Shown here one piece after another: positions 179 through 18,635 of a stretch of 64,000 nt of DNA. A program made the position numbers and the translations under genes. Within the stretch, counting starts at the first letter, position 1. Each line of letters starts with the position of its first letter. A model generated the notes under the pieces. It was not told where the DNA came from. It was given only the letters and a program-made list of their open reading frames with translations, and did no database searches. This DNA comes from a virus, in IMG/VR virus record IMGVR_UViG_3300013372_001471, positions 1 through 64,000 of that record. One strand, 5' to 3'.

Positions 179-469
179 TTAGTTTCTTGATGGATAAATG
201 CCATTGAGACAAATAGAGTATTCCATATAAGGTTTCCCTTGATAGATGTCTCCAAACTCAATATGCAATGGATTACCATGTTCGTCCTTTGGTCTCAAAT
301 CTGGTAATCCAAAATTATGAATACCATCACCACCATACATTGTTCCAAGTAAAGAAAACAATGCTTCATTGTGTTGAATTTGTAAAAGTTGTCCATGACA
401 AAATGTCCAATCTTTTGGTGCGAAATTGTATGGAAACTGTATTATCATGCCTAAAAAAGGTTCATACAT
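179..469 (-). CDS. Short phage tail collar domain protein (Mdp-like)
   Basis: This 96-residue protein matches the Phage Tail Collar domain (Pfam 07484) shared by T4 gp12-type fibres and the microcystin-dependent-protein family. Visible signatures are an N-terminal PFLGMI, FAPKDWTFCHGQLL, ALFSLLGTMYGGDG, FGLPDLR and the typical ending LNGIYPSRN. Family members are usually near 170-190 residues; here the segment between PDLR and the C-terminus is very short, yet both ends are intact, so it looks compact rather than broken. The start has a strong binding site (AAGGAG). It is the last gene of a unit whose three upstream genes encode exported proteins. It could be a fibre tip or a small surface-exposed protein; the choice is open. 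Confidence 0.8.
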   Translation of the reverse strand: MYEPFLGMIIQFPYNFAPKDWTFCHGQLLQIQHNEALFSLLGTMYGGDGIHNFGLPDLRPKDEHGNPLHIEFGDIYQGKPYMEYSICLNGIYPSRN

Positions 470-486
470 TTTATTATCTCCTTGAA

Positions 487-1662
487 TTATTCAACTATAA
501 CCCATTTAGCACCATTGAACCAAAGTGTTCTTGATTGATTTGGCCAAATGGTATAATCAAGTGCAGTATCTGTTCCCCAATCTATATTTCTAATTGTAAC
601 AGTATTTGCAGTTGAGCCATTGAAAATTGTGACGAGCTGACCAACACCTGCACCCGTAGGGGAGACAATGTTGTAGTCCACTGCAACACGACTGACAACC
701 CATCTTGAATTTCCAGGAAGAGTTGCGGGTGCGACTGTGTGAACTGTGACACTACTTGTTTTGTGATGTGGATTAACTTCCCATGAAATACCATTTGTTC
801 CTCTCGTTGCATAGGAGCCGATTGGAGCGGTCTCACCACCTTCGAGAGCAAATACATTGATTGCCCCTCTTTGGACATTGCGTGATGTAACCGTTGAGTC
901 CACCAGAAATTTGGCTGTATCTGCAATGACTGAACGAGCAGAGTTGGTAGCAAACGCAGATGTTGATGCGAAACTAGCATGGTCTGCATCGAAAGCAAAT
1001 ACTGATGTATCTGCAAACTTAGCATGAGTTCCGTTTACGGAATAGAATGCCGTATCGGATTTAGCAGAATGAGCAGCAGTTGAAGCATAAGTTGCTAAAT
1101 CTGCAAGAGTTGCCTTACCGGCTGCACGAGCAGTATCTGCAAACTTCGATGTATTTGAATGATTACTTACTCTGGTTGAGTCTGCATAGTTTGATGTGAG
1201 TGAACTGTTTGCAGTTACAGAGTGAGCGGAAATCTTAGCACTATCTGCAAGTTTTGCCTTATCTGATGTTTCTGAATGTTTTGCCTCAGCAGCATCAAGT
1301 GCATAAGTTGAAAGTAATGCATACGGAACTGTTCTGATTTGTAGTCTTCCGAGTGACACACCGTTCACATAAGCATAAACAAAAAGTTTCTTACCGTAGT
1401 TATCAATCAAGATATTGTCTGCAACATTCTCAATAAGATAATTGATGATACCGTTGTTGATTTCAATATCAACATTCTCACGATACCAAAGAGCGGCAGT
1501 ATTCAATCTTGATACTTCATCGAAAGAACTGTCTGCGATGTAAACTGAAAACTTCGAGTTGATGTCTGTTCCAGCAGGTGCGTGTGCTTGATACTGAATG
1601 TTTGTTCCTGCAAATGCATTGACTGCAATCAAAGTAAAGATTGCCAAAATAACTTGTCTCAT
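487..1662 (-). CDS. Secreted A-x-x-A/D-S repeat protein with a fibre-like C-terminus
   Basis: This 391-residue protein begins with a clear Sec signal peptide (MRQVILAIFTLIAVNAFA, cleavage before GTN). The region after it follows the plan of a secreted family common in Bacteroidota/Kapabacteria-type genomes: a YQ start, a VYI... LWYRENVDIEINNG strand pattern, then LGRLQIRTVPYALLSTYA. From about residue 125 to 260 there is a degenerate repeat of A-x-x-A, ADSAK, ADTA and SNTSKFADTA units, likely a trimeric or helical stalk. The C-terminus (TVTIRNIDWGTD... WFNGAKWVIVE) resembles C-terminal domains of fibre proteins. The start follows GAGGAAAAA. It lies 14 bases after the sorting-domain gene. A signal peptide is unusual for a virion protein, so surface display on the infected cell is inferred. 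Confidence 0.6.
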   Translation of the reverse strand: MRQVILAIFTLIAVNAFAGTNIQYQAHAPAGTDINSKFSVYIADSSFDEVSRLNTAALWYRENVDIEINNGIINYLIENVADNILIDNYGKKLFVYAYVNGVSLGRLQIRTVPYALLSTYALDAAEAKHSETSDKAKLADSAKISAHSVTANSSLTSNYADSTRVSNHSNTSKFADTARAAGKATLADLATYASTAAHSAKSDTAFYSVNGTHAKFADTSVFAFDADHASFASTSAFATNSARSVIADTAKFLVDSTVTSRNVQRGAINVFALEGGETAPIGSYATRGTNGISWEVNPHHKTSSVTVHTVAPATLPGNSRWVVSRVAVDYNIVSPTGAGVGQLVTIFNGSTANTVTIRNIDWGTDTALDYTIWPNQSRTLWFNGAKWVIVE

Positions 1663-1676
1663 TTTTTCCTCATTGT

Positions 1677-2099
1677 TTAATTGAAAATAACTTTTGTTGA
1701 ATATCCTTGTCTATCCCATGTTGTAATTCTGATATAGAACACACCACGATTTGGCAATGTAATAGTATTTGAAGCACCGTTCATTGTTTCGGTTACTACT
1801 CTACCATATACATCTGTTACTTGCACCGATGCGATATTATCAATACCGAATGATACCACACCGTCTCTGGTTGGATTTGGATAAGCAACCATATCAACCA
1901 TGTTTGTTTCTTCTACGGATAACGCTACTCTTTTTGGAATACGAATACCCACATGAAACTTATTCTTATACCCAGCAACTACTTGACCGAGAGTTGCATT
2001 ACCGTTACCACCACTTACTATTGACTTAAGCAAGTGTGGTTTTGTGTCTCCTGCAATTACGGTTGTAACTGCAATAAGCATAGCAATGATATAATTCAT
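1677..2099 (-). CDS. Secreted protein with a type IX secretion C-terminal sorting domain
   Basis: The 140-residue product has a signal peptide (MNYIIAMLIAVTTVIAG) and a C-terminal domain of about 75 residues that matches the type A sorting domain of the type IX (Por) secretion system: AYPNPTRDGVVSF, then VTDVYGRVV, then LPNRGVFYIRI, then STKVIFN at the end. Between them lies a stretch of about 45 residues, GGNGNATLGQVVAG...FHVGI, which resembles the GQ-containing segment often found before such domains. There is almost no other cargo. I chose the ATG at 2099 because AAGGAG sits eight bases before it; the ATG at 2105 is only two bases from it. Known role of the family: export across the outer membrane and surface attachment in Bacteroidota-type bacteria. 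Confidence 0.8.
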   Translation of the reverse strand: MNYIIAMLIAVTTVIAGDTKPHLLKSIVSGGNGNATLGQVVAGYKNKFHVGIRIPKRVALSVEETNMVDMVAYPNPTRDGVVSFGIDNIASVQVTDVYGRVVTETMNGASNTITLPNRGVFYIRITTWDRQGYSTKVIFN

Positions 2100-2124: not shown

Positions 2125-2307
2125 TTAAAACTTTTGTATATGTTGTTCTATCAATGCTTTATTGATGTCAAGATATACTGTATCTTTCTTTGGTTTCTCT
2201 TTCTTGCAACAAGAATGGTCTTTCTTCATTTTCTTTGTTTTTACTTCGTCAGCAATAAATGTTTGTGTTACAAACATAAAGCCAACTATTAACATTAAAA
2301 TCTTCAT
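2125..2307 (-). CDS. Small exported Lys-rich protein with a Cys-Cys pair
   Basis: This 60-residue protein has a hydrophobic signal peptide (MKILMLIVGFMFVTQTFIA, likely cut before DE). The mature part of about 40 residues is rich in lysine and contains HSCCKKEK, a possible metal or disulfide site. No lipobox is seen, so it is probably periplasmic or secreted rather than a lipoprotein. It is the first gene of the secreted-protein cassette, with GGAGATT before the ATG and a strong CATATATTAG motif 24 bases upstream. No family was recognised. Confidence 0.6.
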   Translation of the reverse strand: MKILMLIVGFMFVTQTFIADEVKTKKMKKDHSCCKKEKPKKDTVYLDINKALIEQHIQKF

Positions 2308-2331: not shown

Positions 2332-2341
2332 CTAATATATG
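2332..2341 (-). promoter_or_regulatory. CATATATTAG-class promoter-like motif
   Basis: The coding strand reads TTTCATATATTAGTAGTG, 24 bases upstream of the start at 2307. The 10-base core is identical to sites upstream of the sliding clamp, clamp loader and gp32 genes. The promoter function is inferred. Confidence 0.55.
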
Positions 2342-2369
2342 AAATTTATTGATATGATCAAAATAAAAT

Positions 2370-2702
2370 TTACCCCATTGGGTTGGCATCACGGATTTTT
2401 TCTTTAATCCACTCATACACTTTTTCATCGTGAGTATTTACTTTCCATTCTTTAACTGTTCTGGTGTCCATTTCGTGAAGGCCAAACGGTCTAACATCGG
2501 ATATTTTAGCAACATGACCTGTTTCAAATTCAATATGCCATGCAACTTTCTCTATACCATCAAAATCATCACCGGCTTCTGTTGAGAAAGTTGGTTGTCC
2601 AAATGCTTTAATTAGGTGTCTAAACTCACATTCCATAACGCCAACTTGTGGTGCCAATCTGACCACAATATCTTTTCCTAATCTGTGTTTAGGGTAATTC
2701 AT
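2370..2702 (-). CDS. Conserved phage-type protein of unknown function
   Basis: This 110-residue acidic protein has no signal peptide or membrane segment. It contains FGQPTFSTEAGDDFDGIEKVAWHIEF followed by a strand with GHVAKISDVRPFG and a final EWKVNTHDEKVYEWIKEKI helix. That order (FG-P, then W-x-x-EF, then a W motif and a terminal helix) resembles small hypothetical proteins of T4-like environmental phages, but I cannot name a function. It ends just before the promoter motif at 2332, so it closes the preceding unit. Confidence 0.55.
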   Translation of the reverse strand: MNYPKHRLGKDIVVRLAPQVGVMECEFRHLIKAFGQPTFSTEAGDDFDGIEKVAWHIEFETGHVAKISDVRPFGLHEMDTRTVKEWKVNTHDEKVYEWIKEKIRDANPMG

Positions 2703-2706
2703 AATC

Positions 2707-2901
2707 TCACCTTCTATTTTTGTAATCTGTTTCGTAGAAACCTTGAACTTTAAGAATTGGTTTACTACTTGAAAATGTTTCTAACTTATTCAACTTTGAT
2801 TTTTTTCCACAGGCACATTTTTCTGGAATAGAATTTGTGAGTGGAACAAAATACTCCTCTATCTTTCCACATTTATCACATTCAAAATCATAGGTTGGCA
2901 T
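2707..2901 (-). CDS. FmdB-type zinc ribbon protein
   Basis: The 64-residue product starts MPTYDFECDKCG and has a second pair in CACGKKSK, giving the C-x2-C ... C-x-C arrangement and YDFxC start typical of the FmdB / CxxC-CxxC-SSSS putative regulatory family. I chose the ATG at 2901 because GGGGGA lies seven bases upstream and family members begin with MPxYxxxC; a longer frame reaches 2931. It overlaps the end of the upstream membrane-protein gene by 14 bases. Such proteins are thought to bind zinc and perhaps nucleic acid or partner proteins; the phage role is unknown. Confidence 0.7.
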   Translation of the reverse strand: MPTYDFECDKCGKIEEYFVPLTNSIPEKCACGKKSKLNKLETFSSSKPILKVQGFYETDYKNRR

Positions 2902-3070
2902 AAGATATTCCCCCATGAAATAAAAAGTCAATAAACATCTGTATGAAATATATTCCGATTGCGAGTGGCAATCCTAAAAGAAATGTTAATGCAATTACAA
3001 CAACCGCATAAACTAAATAGGCAAATGGGGTAACTATCCCCATTGATAAAAACTCAAAGAATTTTTGCAT
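2888..3070 (-). CDS. Small two-segment membrane protein
   Basis: This 60-residue protein has two hydrophobic stretches, about residues 10-30 (GIVTPFAYLVYAVVVIALTF) and 33-52 (LPLAIGIYFIQMFIDFLF), separated by a short turn. This is the size and topology of small phage inner-membrane proteins; a holin or an anti-superinfection protein are options, with nothing to decide between them. It overlaps the zinc-ribbon gene downstream. Confidence 0.5.
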   Translation of the reverse strand: MQKFFEFLSMGIVTPFAYLVYAVVVIALTFLLGLPLAIGIYFIQMFIDFLFHGGISYANL

Positions 3071-3088
3071 AATAAAACCTTTTGTATA

Positions 3089-3370
3089 TTAAAACTTTGA
3101 AACTTCATTTACTATGTGTGTATAATCAACGTTATTGATATTTATGGTTCCTTTCAAAACAGATAAATTCATAGAAGTTAATCCTTTCTTAAAAAACTTT
3201 TTGAGGGTATCTTTTATTAAAGGTGCAATCAAAACAGAAAATTCATCAGCATTTAATCTGTGATTCTTTTCAAAAAATATCTGTTCTTGAAACACTATTT
3301 CAAATAGTTCATCTTTTAATTCATCATTTAATTCTATGATGTCCATAACCGTTCTTGTATCAAAATTCAT
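3089..3370 (-). CDS. Hypothetical protein
   Basis: The product of about 93 residues starts MNFDTRTVMDIIELNDELKDELFE, is rich in acidic helices in the first half and Lys/Phe in the middle (DTLKKFFKKGL). I placed the start at 3370, with GGGAAT upstream; an in-frame ATG at 3385 and a start at 3400 are also possible. It overlaps the end of the preceding gene by 11 bases, suggesting coupled translation. No family recognised. Confidence 0.4.
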   Translation of the reverse strand: MNFDTRTVMDIIELNDELKDELFEIVFQEQIFFEKNHRLNADEFSVLIAPLIKDTLKKFFKKGLTSMNLSVLKGTININNVDYTHIVNEVSKF

Positions 3371-5970: not shown

Positions 5971-6987
5971 TTAATTCTGTTTATTATTATTTTTCCAAAA
6001 AGAATATATCCCCTTGTCTAACTCATAGTTTTCCCAAATAAATTGTTCTCTCATTGGTTGAGACTTTGCCCATTCCCACATAAGTTTCAATCCTTCATCA
6101 AGGAGAGTCTTATCTTCATAATCAAGTAATTTAACAGACTTGTCCCATGTTGGATGTGCATATTTTACCTCATGTCTTGGTTCAAGATAGACTGTTTGAC
6201 AATAGCCCGTTACTGAACATAATACATCATTGGCAAAGTTAATGGTCTGTTCATGCGTTCCACCGAGATTTATTATCTCCTTTGAAGCCCTTTTATCAAC
6301 AGCAGCTTTCCAAAGTGGTTCGAGACAATCATCTATGTAACTAAATGCACGAACTTGTTTACCATCACCATATATTGTCATAGGTTTATTATTAAGTATC
6401 TGATACATCCATATACCTAATACATTCCTATACTTATCCCAAATGTTTTGTTTAACACCATAAACATTATGTGGTCTTATTATACACCAATCTAATCCGT
6501 GTTGTTCTCCTGCAATCTGTATGTCTTGTTCGCATGCAAACTTAGCAACACCATACGGATCTATTGGTGTGGGTTGATGTGCTTCATCAAATGGTGGCGT
6601 TCCATGACCATATACTGCCATAGTTGATGTGAATACCAATCTTTTTATATCATGTTTAATACAGTTGTTTACAATGTTGGCGGTTGCCAATAGATTATTC
6701 TCATAATTGAAACAACGGATGAATGGTGATAATCCTTCAGCGGCATAAGCTGCCATGTGATATACATAAGTTGGTTTGTGTTTATCAAATATATCATCTA
6801 TACCTTTTCTATCAACACAATCAACCCCATAGAATATAGCATTAGGGTTTACATTATCAATGTAACCGCCGGATAAGTTATCCACAATAACAACATCGTA
6901 TTCTGGTTTGTTTTCTATTATCCAATCAGCCATTCGTGAGCCAATTAAACCTGCACCACCGGTAATCAATACAGTTTCTTTATTCAT
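5971..6987 (-). CDS. NAD-dependent nucleotide-sugar epimerase/dehydratase
   Basis: A 338-residue extended SDR enzyme. The Rossmann motif TGGAGLIGS is at residues 9-16 and the catalytic Tyr-x-x-x-Lys is YGVAK (145-149), with the upstream STMAVYG serine strand. It resembles UDP-glucose 4-epimerase/dTDP-glucose dehydratase-type proteins; the pattern does not allow the substrate to be fixed, and I see no reason to call it GDP-fucose synthase. It is the last gene of the glycan operon and overlaps the gene before it by 8 bases. AAGGA precedes the ATG. Confidence 0.8.
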   Translation of the reverse strand: MNKETVLITGGAGLIGSRMADWIIENKPEYDVVIVDNLSGGYIDNVNPNAIFYGVDCVDRKGIDDIFDKHKPTYVYHMAAYAAEGLSPFIRCFNYENNLLATANIVNNCIKHDIKRLVFTSTMAVYGHGTPPFDEAHQPTPIDPYGVAKFACEQDIQIAGEQHGLDWCIIRPHNVYGVKQNIWDKYRNVLGIWMYQILNNKPMTIYGDGKQVRAFSYIDDCLEPLWKAAVDKRASKEIINLGGTHEQTINFANDVLCSVTGYCQTVYLEPRHEVKYAHPTWDKSVKLLDYEDKTLLDEGLKLMWEWAKSQPMREQFIWENYELDKGIYSFWKNNNKQN

Positions 6988-7768
6988 ATCGTATTCCTTG
7001 AATTACATTTCCTTTTGGTGAATGAGAGTTTTCTTTTGTTCTGAATGGATTGAAGCCCCATTTGTATTTGAATGTTTCGGCGGCATCCCTTTCACTTTCT
7101 TTGAACCTATCTCCTTCAGATCCATTCTTTGTTGCCATGCTTCCGAAGTGATAGAAATTCAATTTTCTACTTCTTAAAAAGTTACATCCAATCAATTCTA
7201 ATTTCAAAAAGAAATCCCAATCACAAATGAAAGGTGAATTGTATATGGTATCGAACCCACCAACGGCCATATAGTATTTCTTCTGCATAATAAATGGAAA
7301 TATCTCACCGTCTTCTGTTAATAAATTTTCTCTATGATTTTGTTCTTCTTCTGTATATCGTTTGAAATCGAAATCATCTACACCGCCAAAGTTAAGTGTA
7401 ACGAAATTAAATATACTTGGCGTTCTTTCAATTTGATTTGGTGTTATTACTAACTTATCTTCAAAGTCTTTTTCGAGAATACTATCCCAATCTTTTGGAA
7501 AAACATTATCATCATTTACTATCAACATCCATTCATTTGTTGCATTGTATGTTCCAACATTAAGTGCATACTGCATACCAGAGTTTTGTTCCAATGGTAT
7601 GAAAGAAACTCGGTTACTATATTCTTCAATGATGTGTTGCGTTTCTTCAACGAAGCCATCTATGACAACTATTATTTCATTGTTATACTTTTGATTTTCC
7701 AATGCAGACTTCAAACAAATATCTAAACACTTTGGATTTCTGTATGAGGGTATTATTACTGAAATCAT
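6980..7768 (-). CDS. GT2-family glycosyltransferase
   Basis: The 262-residue product starts MISVIIPSYRNPKCLDICLKSALE, the typical GT-A family 2 entrance, with IVVIDGF and a metal-binding DDN (VNDDNVFPKDWD) at about residue 85. A later GGFD...FICDWDFFLKLE is the usual acceptor-side GGFDE-like and ED/WDF region. I chose the ATG at 7768, which forms ATGA with the upstream stop and has GGAGC before it; a longer frame reaches 7801. It transfers a sugar from a nucleotide donor; donor and acceptor are unknown. Confidence 0.85.
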   Translation of the reverse strand: MISVIIPSYRNPKCLDICLKSALENQKYNNEIIVVIDGFVEETQHIIEEYSNRVSFIPLEQNSGMQYALNVGTYNATNEWMLIVNDDNVFPKDWDSILEKDFEDKLVITPNQIERTPSIFNFVTLNFGGVDDFDFKRYTEEEQNHRENLLTEDGEIFPFIMQKKYYMAVGGFDTIYNSPFICDWDFFLKLELIGCNFLRSRKLNFYHFGSMATKNGSEGDRFKESERDAAETFKYKWGFNPFRTKENSHSPKGNVIQGIRYE

Positions 7769-8463
7769 ATTTTGCTCCAATCTGTTAGGGGTGATAACCA
7801 AGCAGTTTCACCGTGAGTTGAATAACCAGGCATGGGTGTCATCAGAGCAACACCATTATCTCTTAATTCTAAAAACATATCAAAGTCTCTTGGGTAGTGC
7901 CCCATGTTTGTCCATTTCCTTAAAATACTTTCATCGCGTTTCAACGATTTAACTTTACCAGCAAATGTCATGGTAGTGCTGTTTGCCAATTTCCAATGAC
8001 AACTTTTTGAAAGATATACCTTTGTAACTTCACCACCATCTTCATCAACAAATTTATTTCCACCACGAACTGCCGGTATGTATTTATCAGGATGGTCATA
8101 AAGACTTACATAATCTGCACCGAGTTCTATTCCTTCGTTAATTATATCAATTGAATTTGATTTATGAAGATAATCATTTTCCAAGAAATATACAAGCAAA
8201 TTTTCATCTTGTTCTAATGCCCAATCTAGTGCAAGATTGAATGTTCCCGCACCATGACCAACAGAAACTATTTTAACACCATCAACATATTTCAATATCA
8301 TTTCTTTTGTAGTATCTGAAACATTGTCTGCAATAACATGAAAATTATCTTTACCAAATACTTCAACTGCATTTCTTAAACAGTTTTCGTTTGTTATGTA
8401 ATCTGGTTTAACTTTACTATAACCAGCATCTGATATTCTGTAAACTACTTTTGTATTACTCAT
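7765..8463 (-). CDS. Putative GT-A-fold glycosyltransferase
   Basis: The 232-residue product begins MSNTKVVYRISDAGYSKVKPDYITNENCL. It has a GHGAGTFNLALDWALEQDENLLVYFLENDYLHK stretch in which a GT-A-like helix is followed by an acidic END that could serve as the DxD metal site. Later parts (VYLSKSCHWKLANSTTMTF) are not diagnostic. It lies between GT2 and GT10 genes and overlaps both, so a transferase role is likely from context. AGGA precedes the ATG at 8463. Confidence 0.55.
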   Translation of the reverse strand: MSNTKVVYRISDAGYSKVKPDYITNENCLRNAVEVFGKDNFHVIADNVSDTTKEMILKYVDGVKIVSVGHGAGTFNLALDWALEQDENLLVYFLENDYLHKSNSIDIINEGIELGADYVSLYDHPDKYIPAVRGGNKFVDEDGGEVTKVYLSKSCHWKLANSTTMTFAGKVKSLKRDESILRKWTNMGHYPRDFDMFLELRDNGVALMTPMPGYSTHGETAWLSPLTDWSKI

Positions 8464-9326
8464 TTTGTTCCTATTAAATCTTTGATACCATTTTCCCAAA
8501 GCATATCACCAAGTGATATGTATTTCTTTGCTTCTTCAAAGTTGTGTCTTATTGCATCGATTCTGCTGTTGTAAAACTCCTCTGTGAACATACCACTTAA
8601 AAATTTCTCAAATAAATCATCACAGTCTTTGAAGAAAATGATACCATCTTTATCGAACATATCAAGATAGGATGTATCTTTATTTGTCCAGTAAATTGGA
8701 ATACAACCACATAACATAGAATCTAATATCTTTTCAGAAAAGAATACGTCATCTTCATTTTCTATCACCAATTCAAATCTATAATCTTTTAATCCCAAAA
8801 ACTTACTATTGAAATCGGGATTAACATATTCAATTATTGGTTCTAAAAGAGAGGACTGTCTATTTCGTATTTCATGCCTAAGATTATGACCAGGCATATA
8901 ATTTTTATGAGACATTATACAAGTTATATTACCTGTCTTTGGATAAATGTTCCATTCTTCTGGACGAATAAGTGTTCTCGCACCACCTGGAAAATACTTA
9001 AACTTTTCAGGATTTGGTGAATCCAATCCAAAGTCTTTATAGGTGCTGAATATCAAATCAAAATGTTCTTGGTTGTCTAATACGAACTGGTAATGCCATT
9101 GTGCAAGAACTCTCGGTTCTACCAAAACTGCAATCTTATATTTTATATCATCGCGTTTTATATCCTGCATACATGGAGAATCCCAACAATCTATCCATAT
9201 AGCAATATCTTGCATTTCATATGGTGTCCAATGTAAATACTTACTTGGAAAACACGGCCATTGTTCTGCAATCTCTTTATCGCCATAGTTTCCAGGATTG
9301 CACATAAATGCCTTTAATCTGTCCAT
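8460..9326 (-). CDS. GT10-family (fucosyltransferase-like) glycosyltransferase
   Basis: A 288-residue GT-B protein. The C-terminal half carries the GT10 signature YRFELVIENEDD...FFSEKILDSMLCGCIPIYW at about residues 182-213, corresponding to the F-x-x-x-FENS...EK...G-x-IP-x-x-x motif of alpha-1,3/4-fucosyltransferases. These use GDP-fucose, and the gene directly upstream encodes GDP-mannose 4,6-dehydratase, which makes the GDP-fucose precursor. The donor could also be another GDP-6-deoxyhexose. The start at 9326 (spacing six from GGAGG) overlaps the upstream stop; ATG 9329 is an alternative. Confidence 0.8.
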   Translation of the reverse strand: MDRLKAFMCNPGNYGDKEIAEQWPCFPSKYLHWTPYEMQDIAIWIDCWDSPCMQDIKRDDIKYKIAVLVEPRVLAQWHYQFVLDNQEHFDLIFSTYKDFGLDSPNPEKFKYFPGGARTLIRPEEWNIYPKTGNITCIMSHKNYMPGHNLRHEIRNRQSSLLEPIIEYVNPDFNSKFLGLKDYRFELVIENEDDVFFSEKILDSMLCGCIPIYWTNKDTSYLDMFDKDGIIFFKDCDDLFEKFLSGMFTEEFYNSRIDAIRHNFEEAKKYISLGDMLWENGIKDLIGTK

Positions 9327-10306
9327 CATCTGCCTCCCAAAAAAGACATCCAATGATGTATCATTTCATCCATAGTTCCGTTAAAGGTGTATTCGGGCTT
9401 CCACCCTAATATCTTTCTTATGCGGGATGAATCACCTTTTAGATAAGGCAATTCTTCAGGTCTTAAAAACTTTTCATCTTGAATAACATAATCGCGATAA
9501 TCCAATTCCAATTTACCAAAAACGTATTCACACATCTCTCTAACGGAACGAGTTTCACCTGTTGCAACTACCCAATCATCTGGAGTATCTTGTTGTAATA
9601 TCATATGCATAGCCCTAACATAATCTTTTGAATGACCCCAATCTCTATATGAATCCAGATTACCTAATACCAATTTATCTTCTAATCCTAATTTTATTTT
9701 AACAGCAGTCTTTACAACTTTATTAGTTACAAAATTAGATCCACGTCTTGGTGATTCGTGATTAAAAAGAATACCGTTACTTGCATGTAAATTATATGCA
9801 TTTCTATAATTACGAACAATGTTGAATCCAAAAACCTTTGAACACCCATAAGGAGAAACTGGCTTCATTGGCGTTGTTTCTCTTTGAAATCCATCGTCAT
9901 CAACCGAACTACCAAACATTTCAGATGAAGATGCTTGATAAAATTTTGCATTAGGACATATTCTCCGGTAAGCATCCAGTATATTTAAGACACCAACTGC
10001 ATTAGTTTGAACAGTAAATTGTGGAATGTCATAACTTACTCTGACATGAGATTGGGCAGCAAGGTTGTATATTTCATCCGGCATAATATCCGCCAATAAT
10101 CTTTCCATACTAGATTGATCCAACAAGTCCCCATAGAATACTTTTATATCTTCATTTCCACCAGATAGACGGCTCTGTTGATGTTCCGGAACAGAGTTTC
10201 TTCTAATCATCCCATATACATCATAATCAAGTCCAACAAGATATTCTGCAAGATATGAACCGTCTTGTCCACCTATTCCAGTTATGAACGCCTTTTTCTT
10301 ACTCAT
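9326..10306 (-). CDS. gmd: GDP-mannose 4,6-dehydratase
   Basis: A 326-residue extended SDR enzyme. TGIGGQDGSYLAEYL (residues 9-23), RRNSVP, HVRVSYDIPQFT, the SSSEMFG strand and YGCSK (153-157) are close to the Gmd family. The enzyme converts GDP-mannose to GDP-4-keto-6-deoxymannose, the common precursor of GDP-fucose, GDP-rhamnose and GDP-perosamine. It is a little shorter than typical bacterial Gmd (about 340-370). It precedes a GT10 transferase and follows a DegT-like aminotransferase. No GDP-fucose synthase is recognisable, so the later steps would be supplied by the host or by a less obvious gene here. Confidence 0.9.
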   Translation of the reverse strand: MSKKKAFITGIGGQDGSYLAEYLVGLDYDVYGMIRRNSVPEHQQSRLSGGNEDIKVFYGDLLDQSSMERLLADIMPDEIYNLAAQSHVRVSYDIPQFTVQTNAVGVLNILDAYRRICPNAKFYQASSSEMFGSSVDDDGFQRETTPMKPVSPYGCSKVFGFNIVRNYRNAYNLHASNGILFNHESPRRGSNFVTNKVVKTAVKIKLGLEDKLVLGNLDSYRDWGHSKDYVRAMHMILQQDTPDDWVVATGETRSVREMCEYVFGKLELDYRDYVIQDEKFLRPEELPYLKGDSSRIRKILGWKPEYTFNGTMDEMIHHWMSFLGGR

Positions 10307-10320
10307 ATTATTTTCCTATG

Positions 10321-10908
10321 TTATTTTTTGAATACTTCCATTTCAGTTAAATCTGGCCAATCCGATACAACCCATTGTCTCGGTTGTGTTTCTATTGCAG
10401 TTGGTAACTTATCCAATCCAAGTTTTGCAGTTTCGGGTGTCATATAATAATGATAACCAATCGTTGATATATTTTGTTCTCGCCAAGGAATAACGGGTAA
10501 TCTACCATCATAAGACATTTTCTTTATTTCAATAGCAGCATCTTCATCATCAAGTAAAATAATACCACCCCTACCCAATGATAAATGTTTTTGATATTGA
10601 AAACTAATACCCATCATTGTATTTGGTATGTAACTATTTTGTTTCCATAATACAGCAGCATCTACAATTCTATCTGTTACATAATAATAGTCTAACCAAT
10701 CTTCATCACGCCATTCCAATTCTATATTCAATTTACTAGCAAGGAATGGAATTGAAATATATGTGTGTTTCGGAACTGAAATTTTATTTACATCAGTATA
10801 ACGAAGAGCGAGTTCAATACCATGTGTGCAACTATCAACTGCGATTGCAAATGGTGCACCAAAAAACTTTGCAACTTCTTTTTCAAACTCTTGAACTATC
10901 TGAAACAT
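10321..10908 (-). CDS. Miniature DegT/DnrJ/EryC1-type sugar aminotransferase
   Basis: Only 195 residues, about half of the usual 370. It retains the beginning of the PLP-binding large domain (FEKEVAKFFGAPFAIAVDSCTHGIELALR) and the lysine region SFQYQKHLSLGRGGIILLDD, in which Lys107 occupies the position of the PLP Schiff-base lysine before the conserved G-x-GG. The small C-terminal domain is nearly missing and replaced by a short tail. It could be a reduced but active enzyme, a partner subunit, or inactive. With Gmd next door, GDP-perosamine formation is one possibility. The gene is open and tightly packed, so it is unlikely to be simple decay. Confidence 0.65.
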   Translation of the reverse strand: MFQIVQEFEKEVAKFFGAPFAIAVDSCTHGIELALRYTDVNKISVPKHTYISIPFLASKLNIELEWRDEDWLDYYYVTDRIVDAAVLWKQNSYIPNTMMGISFQYQKHLSLGRGGIILLDDEDAAIEIKKMSYDGRLPVIPWREQNISTIGYHYYMTPETAKLGLDKLPTAIETQPRQWVVSDWPDLTEMEVFKK

Positions 10909-10916
10909 ATTACACC

Positions 10917-11825
10917 TTATTTTAATTTTTCTTTTAGATATGTTTTTATATTGTTATTATCATTACACCATTTGGTTGCATACTTTGCCTTTGTTTTCTC
11001 ACTAAACATTGGATGGTAGTATTGTTCACATCCACCAAAGAAATAATGAATGGCTTGTGTTAATCTTGTTTTATTCAAATCGGTAACACCTTCAATGTTT
11101 GAACCACCATGTAACATATTTGCAGCCCATATAAGAGCTTGACCTTTTTTTAGTTTTACAATATATGGATCAACACCACTATTTTCAATCAATGATTGTA
11201 TAAATGTTTCATATTCTCTATATGTAACTGCCTCACCATTTTCTATTGTATCTGGATGTGGTAATTTCAAATTATGATACTCATATGTTGGCCACTTATG
11301 ACTACCCGGAACTATCTTTAATGAACCGTTTGTTTCATCCACATCTTCAAACGCGACCCAAACACCACACATCCACAGACTAGGAACCGTATGAAAATGT
11401 ATAACATCACTATGCATAGGTTGGTTGCTTCCCTTAATAAAGTTTATTGTTGAAAACGGAAACGGCTCTTTACAATATAGAGTTGTCAATGCTTCAATTA
11501 TTTTAGGATGTAATGTAAGTTTAGCAATTTCATCACTTCTTTTCCATTGTTCAAAAATTCTTTTTGTATCGGTATATGTGAAATGATCTGCATGAAAAAC
11601 CGTTGAGTCACTATTCAGAGCATCATACATATCATGTAATATCGGTGTTATATCATCGTCTGTTAAATTTAGGTCAATGATAGCATATCCCTTCTCATAA
11701 AAATGTTTGCACATATCTTTTTGTTCTGGTGTTAAATCACAATTATCCAAAAGACTATAAAAGAATGGCGACTCTATCCAAGGAATGTCAAGTGCATCCT
11801 TATCTTTGAAATACTTTTCACTCAT
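10917..11825 (-). CDS. Phytanoyl-CoA dioxygenase-like Fe(II)/2-oxoglutarate oxygenase
   Basis: A 302-residue protein with the facial triad of this family: His138-x-Asp140 in MHSDVIHFH, and His239 in NMLHGGSN, plus Arg254 positioned for 2-oxoglutarate. The core GVWVAFEDVDETNGSLKIVPGSHKWP is diagnostic of the PhyH family. Members hydroxylate lipids, small molecules or sugar-linked groups. In this operon, between an acyltransferase and an aminotransferase, it probably modifies the glycan or its acyl decoration (inference). It overlaps the acyltransferase gene upstream by 8 bases. Confidence 0.85.
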   Translation of the reverse strand: MSEKYFKDKDALDIPWIESPFFYSLLDNCDLTPEQKDMCKHFYEKGYAIIDLNLTDDDITPILHDMYDALNSDSTVFHADHFTYTDTKRIFEQWKRSDEIAKLTLHPKIIEALTTLYCKEPFPFSTINFIKGSNQPMHSDVIHFHTVPSLWMCGVWVAFEDVDETNGSLKIVPGSHKWPTYEYHNLKLPHPDTIENGEAVTYREYETFIQSLIENSGVDPYIVKLKKGQALIWAANMLHGGSNIEGVTDLNKTRLTQAIHYFFGGCEQYYHPMFSEKTKAKYATKWCNDNNNIKTYLKEKLK

Positions 11826-12357
11826 AATTTTCTCCTAATAACTCTTTAGCACTTTCTAAAATTCTATTCTTATCTCTAATTTTTATTGGTCTAGCAGGAC
11901 TACCAGCATATATCATCCAAGGTTCTGTATCCTTTGTTACAACAGAATTTGCACCAACAATACTACCTTCACCAAGAGTAACGCCTGGTAGAACACTACA
12001 ATTCACCCCAAGAGTTGAAAACCTTTTGAATGTTACTGGTAAGTTTACAACAGTTCTATGTTCAATCGGAACAACGGGAGAAATAAGACCTTGACTGAAA
12101 TCATCGGTTGCACAAACTATTCTTCCACCGGAACCTATATTTGTAAAATCTTCCATTATTAGTTTAGCAGATGCACCACCAATGATTGAAACACTTGGAG
12201 CAATGTGTATGTAGTTTCCCAAAATTGCCTGTGTTGAAATATATGTCCACATATCTATTGCAATGTGATTTCCAATCTCAACTAATTCCGGTCTAGTTAT
12301 TATACATTGTTCGTGTATACGAACATCTGTTCCATATTTTTTTAATCTATCTAACAT
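11818..12357 (-). CDS. Hexapeptide-repeat (left-handed beta helix) acyltransferase
   Basis: A 179-residue protein composed of hexapeptide turns (NHIAIDMWTYIS..., LGNYIHIAPSVSIIGGASA, FSTLGVNCSVLPGVTLGEGSIVGANSVVTKD) ending with the typical YAGSPARPIKIR. This is the WbbJ/PerB/NeuD-like O- or N-acetyltransferase class that uses acetyl-CoA on nucleotide sugars or glycans. No other domain is present. Together with Gmd and the aminotransferase it could make an N-acetylated amino-6-deoxy sugar, but the acceptor is not shown. It is followed by a four-base gap to the ketoacyl synthase gene stop. Confidence 0.85.
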   Translation of the reverse strand: MLDRLKKYGTDVRIHEQCIITRPELVEIGNHIAIDMWTYISTQAILGNYIHIAPSVSIIGGASAKLIMEDFTNIGSGGRIVCATDDFSQGLISPVVPIEHRTVVNLPVTFKRFSTLGVNCSVLPGVTLGEGSIVGANSVVTKDTEPWMIYAGSPARPIKIRDKNRILESAKELLGENYE

Positions 12358-12360
12358 AAA

Positions 12361-13305
12361 TCAATCCGCATTGTTTATCAATATAGAACCCCATGCCCAT
12401 CCAGAACCTATTGCAGTTAAAATTATTTTATCACCTTTGTCTATTTCTCCACCCTTAATTGCCTCGTCAAGTGCAATAGGAATTGATGCACCTGCAATGT
12501 TTGCATATTTGTGCATAACAGTTTTAACTTTTTCCATAGGTAGTCCAACTTCTTTAGCAACAATTTTTAATATGTTTATACTTGGTTGATGTGGGACTAA
12601 CATTTTAATTTCAGAAACATCCGTATTTGTTTTTTCCAAAACACTTTTGATTGATGGGGGTAATACTTCTATTGCCTGATCCCAAACTTGTTTACCAATC
12701 ATGTTGAACGTTTCACCTGGATTAAGATTAAATCCTGTCATTCCTGTTCCTGATCCATTTGCTAGTATTTCAGAATACAGCCAACCATTTTCGGATTTAC
12801 CCAACAAAACTGCTCCTGCACCATCACCAAAGAATACAGAGTGTTTGTGATCCCAATCTGTTATTTTAGAATAAGCTTCGGTTGCAATAACGAGAACATT
12901 ATTATACACACCACTACTGATAAATGTAGCACCGATAGTTAATGCATAAACAAATCCAGAACAAACCGCATTTATATCAAATGCTGGCACATTCTTTTTT
13001 ATACCGAGTTTGTTATGTATTATACAGGCAGTTGATGGTGATATTTTTTCAGGACTTGAAGTTGCAACTATTATCAAATCTAAATCTTCTTTATCCACAC
13101 CGGAACTCTCCAATACAGACAATGCAACTTTCAATCCCATATCAGACGGTAATTCATTTTCAACAACACGTCTTTCATCTATCCCAAGTTTTTCTTTTAC
13201 CCATTCGTGAGTAGTATCTACTCTCGATTCAATTTCATAATTGGTAACAATCTTTTCAGGAAGATAAGAACTTGTGCCCTTTATTTTAACATTTTCAAAT
13301 TTCAT
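12361..13305 (-). CDS. 3-oxoacyl-ACP synthase III-like ketosynthase (FabH family)
   Basis: A 314-residue thiolase-fold enzyme the same length as FabH. The catalytic triad is intact: Cys115 (INAVCSGF), His239 (VPHQPSIN) and Asn269 (KYANIAGAS). GDGAGAVLLG and the final GSGWAWGSILI are typical. FabH-like enzymes condense an acyl-CoA with malonyl-ACP, but members in sugar operons can act as acyl-transfer enzymes. Its place beside a hexapeptide acyltransferase, a 2-oxoglutarate oxygenase and a cupin suggests an acylated sugar. It overlaps the cupin gene (ATGA). A complete KAS III in a phage is uncommon. Confidence 0.85.
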   Translation of the reverse strand: MKFENVKIKGTSSYLPEKIVTNYEIESRVDTTHEWVKEKLGIDERRVVENELPSDMGLKVALSVLESSGVDKEDLDLIIVATSSPEKISPSTACIIHNKLGIKKNVPAFDINAVCSGFVYALTIGATFISSGVYNNVLVIATEAYSKITDWDHKHSVFFGDGAGAVLLGKSENGWLYSEILANGSGTGMTGFNLNPGETFNMIGKQVWDQAIEVLPPSIKSVLEKTNTDVSEIKMLVPHQPSINILKIVAKEVGLPMEKVKTVMHKYANIAGASIPIALDEAIKGGEIDKGDKIILTAIGSGWAWGSILINNAD

Positions 13306-13721
13306 TCTTTCTCCAAGAAAACTTTATCAAGTTTCTGCCCCTCATATGGTCCAGTTTTGTATTCATATACAAATGTATCATCTTCAAGAATATAATAGTT
13401 GTGTCCACCTTCAAGTGTAAAACTTGCATCACCAGGATAAAGAATTGGCTCAGCTATAACTACATCATCAATATCATATAAAATACATTTCACACTACCA
13501 CGAACAACTATCCAACTTTCTTGTGCAATAACATTGCGTGTTCTTTCTTTCCAAATATGTTTATGTGGTTTGAAAGTTTTACCTTCTTCCATTTGTAGTA
13601 TAGAACATTGTATGAATTGATTTTCCTCAACAATGTCTTGTCTACCTGGTTTGAAATCTTCTTTACGAACAATAATGTGAAGCAGTTTTTCTGGCTCAAC
13701 CTTTGAGTATATTTTCTCCAT
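13302..13721 (-). CDS. Cupin-fold protein (WbuC-like)
   Basis: A 139-residue beta-rich protein. PHKHIWKERTRNVIAQESWIVVRGSVKCILYDIDD fits the cupin motif 1 region with two His (KPHKH) and a Glu further on; YPGDASFTLEGGHNYYILED resembles motif 2 with a His. WbuC-type cupins occur in O-antigen operons, with unknown activity. The operon context (KAS III, oxygenase, acyltransferase) agrees. Metal binding is plausible; the reaction is unknown. Confidence 0.6.
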   Translation of the reverse strand: MEKIYSKVEPEKLLHIIVRKEDFKPGRQDIVEENQFIQCSILQMEEGKTFKPHKHIWKERTRNVIAQESWIVVRGSVKCILYDIDDVVIAEPILYPGDASFTLEGGHNYYILEDDTFVYEYKTGPYEGQKLDKVFLEKE

Positions 13722-13722
13722 T

Positions 13723-14352
13723 TCAATTATCCTCTAATCTTTTCAAAATAGTCATTCTATATTCGGTATCATATCCTTTAACAATGGACCAATTGTGGTT
13801 ACTTTGTAAGAAATCAATGATTGTGTCTTCAACATAATTTAAGTTGCCGGAAGTATTCTGTAATAAATCCTCTCTCATATTCGAGACAAACTTATTATCA
13901 TTTATTACAATATATTTTTTAACCATACTCTGGATTGATGATATGGTTTCTGATAAATTATTAACGGTATTATCGGTATGTATGAAAACCATATCTACTA
14001 TTTCACCAATATCTAAAAACGGTGGTCTTACTATTACTTCAAAAGAAATACCACAGTATTTTGAAATATCATTTAGGTAATATATTTTCTTATTCATTTT
14101 ATCCAACCAAATGGATCTAAATGATTTTTCTAAACCGTTTTTATTTGATAACAAACCATTTATCATGCACCATGAGAATGTTATTTTATCATCGGGATGT
14201 ATAGTTATTAACTCAACAATGTTATTACATTCTTCTGACAAAGAACTCAATGTATTACAATAAGGAAATGTATCTATGTCAGACATGCAAACATTAAAAA
14301 ACTTTTCAGTAATTATTTTATTCGATATGATTTCTTTGTTATCCATTATCAC
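13723..14352 (-). CDS. Putative SAM-methyltransferase-like protein
   Basis: A 209-residue protein lacking a clear glycine-rich SAM motif. The order of a VDMVFIHTDNTVNN strand-turn (possible motif IV), a SSIQSMVKKYIVINDN helix-strand and a final YRMTILKR strand recalls class I methyltransferases of the Methyltransf_24/CmcI-like type, but this is weak. It is inside the glycan operon and its GTG start forms GTGA with the upstream stop; an ATG at 14346 is an alternative. Treat it as an unknown glycan-operon gene. Confidence 0.4.
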   Translation of the reverse strand: MIMDNKEIISNKIITEKFFNVCMSDIDTFPYCNTLSSLSEECNNIVELITIHPDDKITFSWCMINGLLSNKNGLEKSFRSIWLDKMNKKIYYLNDISKYCGISFEVIVRPPFLDIGEIVDMVFIHTDNTVNNLSETISSIQSMVKKYIVINDNKFVSNMREDLLQNTSGNLNYVEDTIIDFLQSNHNWSIVKGYDTEYRMTILKRLEDN

Positions 14353-15209
14353 AGTATAAGTTTTTTTATTTCTTCAATAACTTCATCATCACTAATATAA
14401 GGATTTAGAGTGACATGGCCAAATTCTGGAAAATAAAATTTTGGTCCCAATTTAGGTTCTTCATTTTTTTCTATTACACCGTTCCATCCATACAGTTGAT
14501 GAACAAAATCTCCCGTTATTATAGTTTTAATACCAAGACCTGCAGCGATATTAGACAAACCACCTTCAGCGCCTATAAAGTAATCACAATTTTTAATAAC
14601 GGATGCGGTCAATGTTAATTCACTAACTGCTGTTATTTCCGATGTTTTTTGATCAAAACCATTTGGTTTACCCACTGGTATCAATAATACATTATCATTT
14701 TTATTTAAGGTTTCCAATATATGATTTATGTTTCTTCTCTTTCCACCATAGCCCAAATTAGGGACATCAATTCCGGTGTTATATTCTTCTTCTGTAAATA
14801 AGAAACTTTTTTCTTCCCAATTTGTTTGAACAGCAACTAGTATATTTTTTTCGTTTTTGTATGAAGAAAATGCATCTTTAACTAACTTATCGGTTGATTT
14901 ATTAGTATAAACATTATAGTCAGTATCAACATTTTCAATCCCACATTGAATTTGGAACTGTTCTATTGGAGTTGATTTTCTATTTATAGGTTTGAGTTGA
15001 TGTATTACATTGTAAACGGATTCATCACATTCTGAATAATAAACATCATCTATGTATGGGTTGTTAAACATCAATTCAAATGGTGCAAGAATAGATATTT
15101 GAAAATCTACTTGACAATCATTACCATGTTTTTCCTTTAACTTTTTTGCAATTGATGATGCAAATATATTATCACCAATAAATCCAATAGTCTTTACTAA
15201 AATTTTCAT
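14349..15209 (-). CDS. GT9-family (heptosyltransferase-like) glycosyltransferase
   Basis: A 286-residue GT-B protein. It begins MKILVKTIGFIGDNIFASSIAKKLKEKHG, the usual GT9 start with GD near residue 12, and contains NCDYFIGAEGGLSNIAAGLGIKTIITG at about 205-230, matching the D-x-x-x-G-x-x-x-G-x-x-H/N-x-A-x-A-x-G donor site of ADP-heptose:LPS heptosyltransferases. The family's usual histidine is Asn here. It is shorter than typical GT9 (about 330-350). Donor and acceptor unknown; overlaps the GT7-like gene. Confidence 0.7.
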   Translation of the reverse strand: MKILVKTIGFIGDNIFASSIAKKLKEKHGNDCQVDFQISILAPFELMFNNPYIDDVYYSECDESVYNVIHQLKPINRKSTPIEQFQIQCGIENVDTDYNVYTNKSTDKLVKDAFSSYKNEKNILVAVQTNWEEKSFLFTEEEYNTGIDVPNLGYGGKRRNINHILETLNKNDNVLLIPVGKPNGFDQKTSEITAVSELTLTASVIKNCDYFIGAEGGLSNIAAGLGIKTIITGDFVHQLYGWNGVIEKNEEPKLGPKFYFPEFGHVTLNPYISDDEVIEEIKKLIL

Positions 15210-15919
15210 AACTCATTCTCACTATAAACAAAATTATTTACTTTCAACCAACGAACATCGCTACCTGCATCAAACTCTATACAATCTGCCGATACATTTT
15301 CATACCCAAAAGATATATTTTCTTTTATCTGATAGAGTAGTTTATGATTGTTTATGAAATCAACATCATCGTCTGCAGGTTTACTGTCTTCGTGATAAAG
15401 TGCATAAAATAGCCCATCATTTCTTTTCCATTCATAACCGTGTAGTCTTAATCTTTCCCGCGTATCATCATCTTCTTTACCCCAACCGCGATAGTATGGA
15501 TTCAAACCATTTACTTTTTGAAATAAGTTTCTATGTAAAACAAAAACACCACCAGAGTGATCACCAACATCCACATGAAAGTTTCTATAACCAGCGGGTA
15601 TATCTTCATATTTTCTCTCTACATCATTTGCATCCAGAAATTTTACTCTACCAACTGGATATAAAGGAGTATCTTCATCTGTATCATAGGAAACTCCAGA
15701 CGCAGGATAGTAATCTACATCGTGAAAAATAAACAACTCGCCATTTGCCCTTTTAGCTGCTATATTATACAAAGAGTTTTTCTGAAACTTATCGTTGTCA
15801 TCCTGTTCAACAATAATTATTTCATAATCACCTTTACGAAAAATATCATGCAGTCTTGGCAAAAGTTTTATTAAATGAGGTTCTCTGTCTCTGTAAGATA
15901 TTATTATAGAGTATTTCAT
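15206..15919 (-). CDS. GT7-like (beta-1,4-galactosyltransferase-type) glycosyltransferase
   Basis: A 237-residue GT-A protein. The DxD metal site is DVD (67-69) in FIFHDVDYYP, and GWGKEDDDTRERL at 145-157 closely matches the GWGGEDDD motif of animal beta-1,4-galactosyltransferases, preceded by SGGVFVLHRNLFQKVNGLNPYYRGW. These features define the Glyco_transf_7 N- and C-terminal regions. Animal enzymes transfer galactose from UDP-Gal to GlcNAc; here the sugars are unknown. It overlaps its neighbours by 4 bases at both ends. Confidence 0.8.
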   Translation of the reverse strand: MKYSIIISYRDREPHLIKLLPRLHDIFRKGDYEIIIVEQDDNDKFQKNSLYNIAAKRANGELFIFHDVDYYPASGVSYDTDEDTPLYPVGRVKFLDANDVERKYEDIPAGYRNFHVDVGDHSGGVFVLHRNLFQKVNGLNPYYRGWGKEDDDTRERLRLHGYEWKRNDGLFYALYHEDSKPADDDVDFINNHKLLYQIKENISFGYENVSADCIEFDAGSDVRWLKVNNFVYSENEL

Positions 15920-16677
15920 AATCTATCATATTGGTGAACAATAAAATATCTATCTAACGTATTCATGTCAAAGGTAACAAACCCTTTAGCAATAACATCA
16001 AGATGCACTGCAAAGTTATTACTTAAATCTGTGAACATAACATCATCTTTGTATGTGGTCTGTATTAAATAATTAAATGATGTTTGATCAGCAACAAGTT
16101 TTTTACCAATAGACATAAGATATATGTCTCTACATATGTTACGAACATAATGTCCACATCCACCGAAAACACCAACATTGTAAACTTCTTTATCAATCAA
16201 TGTATCAGTTCCAATTCCACCTAAATTAACAAACAAGTGCCTTTTATTCCAATCTTCGTTTTCATACTTAACAACTTCACTTGAAGCAATTATCAAGTTA
16301 TGAGGAACATACTCGAATGGATCTCTATTAAAATAAACATCCCTAACATCAGTAATCAAAACTTTATCATATTCGGTATCGTTTAGTATTTGCCATATAT
16401 GAAAAAATCTAACATTATGAACCAAATTATATGATGACTCTAAATCATTATTTGCAGTATTTGTTTCAAACTTTGTTGTATATTGCCCATACATATCAAA
16501 CTCCGGGACAATAACATCTATATTCTTTGATAATAGATACTCGGATAACTCACTATTTGTATTGTTATAGAGTAATAGTATTCGTTCACACCCAAATATA
16601 TTTGATGATTCTACCCATCTATCAACATCCTTTATGCCATAGTTTCCACTAATCGCACCTATCAATAAATTTCTCAT
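15916..16677 (-). CDS. Putative GT-A glycosyltransferase (DUF616-like)
   Basis: A 253-residue protein. The sequence YDKVLITDVRDVYFNRDPFEY at about residues 103-123 contains a DVRD metal-binding motif typical of nucleotide-diphospho-sugar transferases that include the DUF616 and GT8-related proteins; NLGGIGTDTLIDKEVYNVGVFGG and VADQTSFNYLI follow, in which D-Q-xx-xN recalls the GT8 'DQD' region. The donor sugar is not evident. It overlaps the GT7-like gene and the GT2 gene. Confidence 0.6.
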   Translation of the reverse strand: MRNLLIGAISGNYGIKDVDRWVESSNIFGCERILLLYNNTNSELSEYLLSKNIDVIVPEFDMYGQYTTKFETNTANNDLESSYNLVHNVRFFHIWQILNDTEYDKVLITDVRDVYFNRDPFEYVPHNLIIASSEVVKYENEDWNKRHLFVNLGGIGTDTLIDKEVYNVGVFGGCGHYVRNICRDIYLMSIGKKLVADQTSFNYLIQTTYKDDVMFTDLSNNFAVHLDVIAKGFVTFDMNTLDRYFIVHQYDRL

Positions 16678-17309
16678 AAATCATTTCCCATGTTTGCATA
16701 AAAACTATTCTGTGCTTCTTGTTTGTGAATAGACTTCATATGATATAGACAATATGCCTCATCTTCTGGTAAATTTGTATAACTATTGTATCCAGATATT
16801 CTCTCATGCACTTTATTTTTCCATGATATTGTATCTATATTTTTGTATATTCTAGTTTGATAATCTGGCCAATTAACTCTTTCTTCATCATCAAATCTCC
16901 ATCCCCATTTTTCAATATGGTTGGGTGTGATGTCAAAAACAGTATTCCATCTTGGAACTAAAAACATATCTACTTCATCATTACTTTCAAGTATAGACTT
17001 CAAATTAGCAAGAAGAAATTGTGAAGGAACTTCATCGGCATCTATATTGAATATCCATTTTTTTGAACAGTATTTTTTCAAATTGTTTTTGAATCTTGAA
17101 AAATCATTATCCAAAGGAAATTCTATGACAACCATGTTTTTTATGGTTTCAAGATATTGATCAACAACATCTTTTATTTCAGTTGTTAGTTTTTCGCTAT
17201 CAAGTTGTATTACCAATTCATCATCGTCAGTAATATAATTTGAAAGTGTATCTAACAAAATCAATAACTCTTTTTCTTCATTGCATGCGGTTACTGTATA
17301 TGAAATCAT
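16674..17309 (-). CDS. GT2-family glycosyltransferase (WaaE/KdtX-like)
   Basis: A 211-residue protein starting MISYTVTACNEEKELLILLDTLSNY, with the metal site NIDADEVPSQFL at about residue 92, followed by PRWNTVFDITPNHIEKWGWRFDDEERVNWPDYQTRIYK. The N-E-E start, DADE and W-x-D-x-Q-x-R-I-Y-K are typical of the WaaE-like subgroup of GT2 that adds glucose or other sugars to LPS core. Overlap with both neighbours indicates coupled translation. Confidence 0.8.
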   Translation of the reverse strand: MISYTVTACNEEKELLILLDTLSNYITDDDELVIQLDSEKLTTEIKDVVDQYLETIKNMVVIEFPLDNDFSRFKNNLKKYCSKKWIFNIDADEVPSQFLLANLKSILESNDEVDMFLVPRWNTVFDITPNHIEKWGWRFDDEERVNWPDYQTRIYKNIDTISWKNKVHERISGYNSYTNLPEDEAYCLYHMKSIHKQEAQNSFYANMGNDL

Positions 17310-18625: not shown

Positions 18626-18635
18626 TTTTATATCC

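Follow-up and report, generated by a model that had tools for sequence, protein, structure and literature searches.

The locus described here raises the question of why a phage genome would carry a small gene whose product looks like a cargo of a Bacteroidota-type type IX secretion system (T9SS), and what that product could do for the phage. The window analysed, the first 64,000 bases of a virus record of 73,102 bases, contains genes for a T4-type DNA polymerase, a DnaB-like helicase, a UvsX-like recombinase, a ribonucleotide reductase and a tape measure protein. The longest open reading frame of the gene of interest, P0001, spans 1677-2105 on the minus strand (142 aa), and a start at 2099 gives 140 aa. 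The start at 2099 is the better one, since AAGGAG lies 8 nt before it, against 2 nt before the ATG at 2105, and since the alignment of the P0001 relatives begins at the methionine at 2099. The first-pass annotation had described the product as a Sec signal peptide and a type A C-terminal sorting domain (CTD) with some 45 residues of passenger between them, and this architecture was borne out, the signal by inspection of the aligned N-termini and the CTD by profile and fold (Table 1). A conserved, hydrophobic, signal-like segment, with small residues ahead of the mature part, could be found at the N-terminus of all members.

Table 1. Features of the P0001-P0002 locus in the window (all on the minus strand).
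Feature	Position	Strand	Evidence or remark
P0001, putative minimal T9SS type A cargo	1677..2099	-	140 aa; TIGR04183 35-37 bits, cut-off 23; 20 viral contigs
P0001 signal-peptide-like segment, about residues 1-17	2049..2099	-	N-terminus conserved and hydrophobic across the 17 aligned members; by inspection
P0001 conserved passenger (VSGGNGNATLGQVVAGY...HVGIR)	1905..2048	-	most conserved part of P0001; pLDDT <50
P0001 predicted type A C-terminal sorting domain	1680..1886	-	TIGR04183; Foldseek to 8glk_D, 8gl6_D, 8gl8_D
P0002, secreted fibre-like partner, 391 aa (signal, beta N-domain, repeat-rich middle, phage-type tip)	487..1662	-	adjoins P0001 downstream in 18/18 contigs reaching that far; Phage_depo_C sub-threshold in 13/16 members
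P0002 C-terminal tip region	490..900	-	conserved block; Phage_depo_C-like at residues 328-387
Small tail-collar-domain protein, possible third member	179..469	-	PF07484 83.5 bits; in six relatives; like the domain fused to a fibre in bacterial L160
60-aa exported-looking protein heading the window operon	2125..2307	-	relatives in four other loci only; unit membership uncertain
Promoter-like TTTG-N19-TATATTAG	2332..2362	-	24 nt ahead of the 60-aa gene; in eight relatives it precedes P0001 by 33-34 nt

The sorting-domain profile check that had been proposed earlier placed P0001 above the curated cut-off of NCBIfam TIGR04183, and the Pfam profile PF18962 scored below its threshold in the window's member (22.9 versus 27). 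At E <= 0.01, TIGR04183 matched 17/17 and PF18962 15/17 of the aligned relatives, and two relatives lie under the TIGR04183 cut-off at 19.9 bits. An AlphaFold2 model built from 17 sequences was confident over the last ~70 residues (pLDDT blocks 79-87), and the modelled CTD has the form of an Ig-like beta-sandwich. When this CTD model was compared with the PDB by Foldseek, the first three neighbours were all T9SS cargo domains, namely NucA (8glk_D; TM 0.78 over target, rmsd 1.9), RemA (8gl6_D) and RemZ (8gl8_D), which are CTDs bound to the SprA/PorV translocon of F. johnsoniae; 8glk_D was also listed, together with 8glj_D, by a sequence-profile search of PDB chains. G99 in the VYGR/LKG/LYG motif is invariant (17/17) and corresponds to the glycine after strand 3 (motif L-beta3-beta4), whose role in type A CTDs has been described (PMC11285876). 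The last strand reads STKVIFN in the window and its closest relatives, and in the others the near-invariant lysine column holds T, I or R, as assigned by alignment only. The curated profile, the predicted fold and the full-length bacterial relatives described below support the assignment of P0001 as a putative phage-encoded type A T9SS cargo.

A search for homologues, also proposed earlier, found relatives of P0001 in 18 other IMG/VR contigs, and one more (L177) was reached via the partner gene P0002, so that the family occupies 20 viral contigs including the window, the longest of 177 kb. TIGR04183 matched once per record in these contigs, except for one contig that ends inside the gene. The full-gene dN/dS of about 0.11-0.32 indicates purifying selection, which together with the 20 viral contigs makes a chance origin implausible; a chance ORF or a misassembly was ruled out, as the gene lies among phage genes in these contigs. 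In 9/12 comparisons the passenger had a lower dN than the CTD. The two parts could also differ sharply between two contigs, for instance L004 and L011, where the N-terminal half is 94% identical and the CTD 45%, and from this contrast the CTDs were apparently swapped between lineages. Given that CTDs can be incompatible between species (PMC11285876), the exchange may follow the T9SS preferences of the hosts. Neither P0001 nor P0002 had a match in 50,697 phage records, and a peptide-pattern scan of genome contigs gave no relative.

The first-pass annotation also knew of no described phage that uses this secretion route, a statement that is outdated, since phage T9SS cargos as a kind are already known from Cryophage, Flavobacterium phage immuto, LR745206 and entries of BFVD. 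In Cryophage, Bellas et al. (2020) described three genes for T9SS type A cargos, with superinfection exclusion among the roles they proposed (PMC7468147). Cryophage resembles the present phages in its type A sorting-domain proteins and in the proposed use of the host T9SS (PMC7468147), but it carries three variable cargos (enzymes and a PA14 protein) per phage, whereas the present genomes each carry one conserved minimal cargo with a fixed fibre partner. The cultured phage immuto encodes gp015 (NC_055915.1, YP_010114427.1; L178 3509-4240; TIGR04183 44.8 bits), which shares with P0001 a signal-like N-terminus and a type A CTD; however, its passenger is annotated as a cohesin domain and is not of the P0001 type, and both the phage and the gene context are unrelated. 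Furthermore, two TIGR04183 matches in the 635-kb uncultured phage LR745206.1 (L179 2168-2767) exceed the cut-off, and viral proteins under the name 'Secretion system C-terminal sorting domain' are present in BFVD. While phage T9SS cargo itself is known, the present family of large uncultured phages carries a conserved minimal cargo fixed with a fibre partner. This combination, one per genome and mirrored in bacteria, was absent from the literature searched, which took in few subscription papers. With it, the use of type IX secretion by phages, known so far from scattered annotations, becomes a conserved, testable module, for which immuto, a cultured Flavobacterium phage with a T9SS cargo of its own, offers a laboratory entry point.

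The partner gene P0002, overlooked in the first-pass annotation, starts 4-21 nt after the P0001 stop where the gap was measured. Like P0001, its product has its own signal-like N-terminus, conserved in all relatives. The N-domain is predicted to contain strands from residue 19 to 109 (pLDDT about 66-87), the repeat-rich middle has no confident structure in the model and no clear period, and the tip resembles Phage_depo_C at sub-threshold scores. No sorting domain could be found in P0002 with the NCBIfam profiles, and its fold search against the PDB returned nothing at E <= 0.001. At the other end of the window's operon, the 60-aa protein is Lys-rich and contains a Cys-Cys motif.

Counterparts of the pair could be found in bacteria. 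A search of 296 Bacteroidota genomes (the phylum of a Marinilabiliales genome) with the full-length P0001 profile gave a best match of E 2.2e-12 over model positions 4-140. This match and four further near-full-length ones are minimal T9SS cargos, with a signal, a 'SGGDAxGxGGxxSYSVGQIVYT...QGVQQPYE' passenger and a type A CTD, and all of them (5/5) are followed directly downstream on the same strand by a gene for a secreted fibre, which starts '...FAQAPNKMSYQAVIRN...LLSVPYALYA' and has a diverse C-terminus. Comparison of the phage and bacterial cargo families by hhalign gave 97.1% (E 7e-11, phage residues 29-138), and the comparison restricted to the passenger was weak (11%, E 0.0026). A passenger-only profile gave three weak matches in 395 genomes, of which one lies in a lytic-transglycosylase-like (MltG-like) gene and another is antisense to an aminotransferase-like gene.

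The search from the fibre side pointed the same way. With the N-domain of the bacterial fibres, 30 loci were found, and in 22 of them a cargo-like gene immediately precedes the fibre gene on the same strand; with the three loci used to build the profile set aside, the count is 19/27. Half of the 22 upstream genes (11) are strong matches with passenger support, and the other 11 are weak (17-32 bits) and uncertain as P0001-type cargos, because the CTD alone could explain such scores. The P0002 N-domain profile matched the bacterial fibre gene G311 (E 1.2e-5), directly upstream of which lies a minimal cargo with 'VSGG...FGQ...GFWVPEGLVTSVDEP...YPNP'; in a weaker match, G220 (E 0.005), the domain is fused to a tail-collar domain closely like that of the phage third gene. 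By hhalign, P0002 and the bacterial fibres gave 26%, a link that is moderate by sequence. When IMG/VR was scanned with two short patterns each from A5 and A6, two of the bacterial versions, no further phages were found. Given that the full-length bacterial relatives are minimal T9SS cargos with a fibre gene downstream, the phage P0001-P0002 pair looks like one taken over from Bacteroidota. The bacterial pairs at L112-L116 and L158 share with the phage pair a signal, a SGG...GQ...G passenger and a type A CTD, followed by a same-strand secreted fibre, but they are chromosomal, with a longer passenger and differing fibre C-termini, and P0002 is distantly alike. This ties a phage lineage to an apparently common, unnamed Bacteroidota pair of a minimal cargo and a secreted fibre; our searches gave neither a name nor a function for it.

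Two other explanations bear on these observations. P0001 alone could be the effector, as a T9SS cargo that is either released or kept on the surface, and P0002 would then be a separate protein, secreted or periplasmic, linked to it by no more than a common transcript; type A cargos are able to work by themselves, P0002 lacks a sorting domain, and no binding surface is visible in the passenger of the AlphaFold2 model (pLDDT <50). We regard this as unlikely in view of the strict pairing in phages and the repeated pairing in bacteria, and of a passenger whose length would not suffice for an enzyme and which in most comparisons is better conserved than the CTD. It is very improbable that both are virion modules, P0002 a tail fibre and the P0001 domain a mere Ig-like fold in the particle. 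Although several contigs have tail-collar and endolysin-type genes beside the pair and the tip of P0002 is of phage type, signal-like N-termini, needless for virion proteins assembled in the cytoplasm, are kept in all relatives, the P0001 CTD matches T9SS cargo specifically, and the bacterial counterparts are chromosomal secreted proteins.

The mosaic adhesive trimer (MAT; NF053851) proteins of Bdellovibrio provide a comparison for the fibre. They are surface-displayed fibres with phage-like tips, and they share with P0002 a signal peptide, a beta-rich N-domain and a variable phage-like tip (PMC10769870). In the predicted model of P0002, the strands from residue 19 to 109 agree with the beta-rich domain of about 130 aa that follows right after the signal peptide in MAT proteins. 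Since P0002 had no match at E <= 1 among NCBIfam profiles including NF053851, and the N-domains of the bacterial partner fibres scored 37-42 bits against a cut-off of 60, P0002 is not filed as a member of NF053851; by analogy it may nevertheless work like a mosaic adhesive trimer fibre. The available part of the Bdellovibrio description mentions no T9SS cargo partner (PMC10769870), in contrast to the pairs described here. Among the Bacteroidota loci, including L114, L115, L116 and L158, a minimal T9SS cargo with a secreted MAT-like fibre of variable C-terminus appears to be widespread.

According to the above results, we consider it probable that P0001 and P0002 form a phage-carried pair of Bacteroidota ancestry, in which the T9SS cargo escorts or anchors the fibre so that it is displayed on the infected cell. 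Export through Sec, capture of the type A CTD by SprA/PorV, and subsequent anchoring or release are established for the T9SS (PMC10994853, PMC12618676), and type A CTDs are sufficient for secretion (PMC12618676). By analogy, P0001 would enter the periplasm through Sec, SprA/PorV would take its CTD across the outer membrane, and P0001 would end up either anchored to the surface of that cell or released. Judging from its conservation, the passenger would most likely bind the N-domain of P0002 and thereby escort or anchor it. P0002 has no sorting domain and its exit route is a guess; the pair suggests how a protein lacking such a tag could be exported through the T9SS. Surface display of the fibre is the best reading: the infected cell would display P0002, and the likely benefit would be an altered surface that hinders further adsorption or changes adhesion.

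A stricter form of receptor masking, in which the P0002 tip copies the receptor-binding tip of the phage, occupies the receptor and excludes other phages, would agree with the depolymerase-like tip and with the similar role proposed for the Cryophage cargos (PMC7468147). Yet in ten phage records, several of them >110 kb, the tip profile found nothing but P0002 itself, and it had no match in Microcystis phage Mel-JY01; with no second copy of the tip in the ten records, although incomplete contigs leave some room for one, strict mimicry is not supported, and we hold it to be improbable. Escort and display of the fibre by the cargo could also be placed in a wider, more tentative frame, which we regard as possible but rather doubtful: a two-gene system for surface fibres, so far undescribed, may be widespread in Bacteroidota, with a minimal T9SS cargo as the dedicated carrier or anchor of a tagless MAT-like fibre, and this phage lineage may have captured it to recoat infected cells.

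The position of the pair can be read from Mel-JY01 (L028, PP395634.1), the closest cultured relative by DNA polymerase (62% identity). It is collinear with the window on both flanks of the module, and at the module site, between a relative of the window gene 2370-2702 and a chitinase-like gene, it has a peptide deformylase (L028 38967-39662); a P0001-P0002 pair and a TIGR04183 match are both absent from it. In L177, a deformylase-like gene (2560-3339) adjoins the module. As Mel-JY01 has the deformylase at that place and L177 has both, P0001-P0002 is an accessory unit with a fixed location.

The sorting domain had been taken earlier to identify the host group, a claim that stands in so far as the domain, the bacterial counterparts and the promoter-like motif, all read from sequence, point to Bacteroidota as the putative host of the pair-carrying phages; a DNA polymerase search of 395 Bacteroidota genomes gave no direct host link. 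Besides the positions in Table 1, the promoter-like motif lies 56 nt before P0001 in two more relatives, although the relatives are not independent. It resembles the Bacteroidota TTTG / TAnnTTTG promoter. Motifs of this type are marginally enriched in the window (13 versus 7.7 expected). Mel-JY01 is labelled a Microcystis phage though its sister phages carry a Bacteroidota-type T9SS cargo, and one of the two hosts should be re-examined; the label speaks neither for nor against Bacteroidota as hosts of the present phages.

Elsewhere in the window, a long run of sugar genes (an epimerase and several glycosyltransferase-like ORFs) occupies 5971-20060 on the minus strand and is partly common to Mel-JY01; a role in DNA or virion glycosylation is possible. 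An ORF of 2,389 aa extends over 54048-61217, also on the minus strand.
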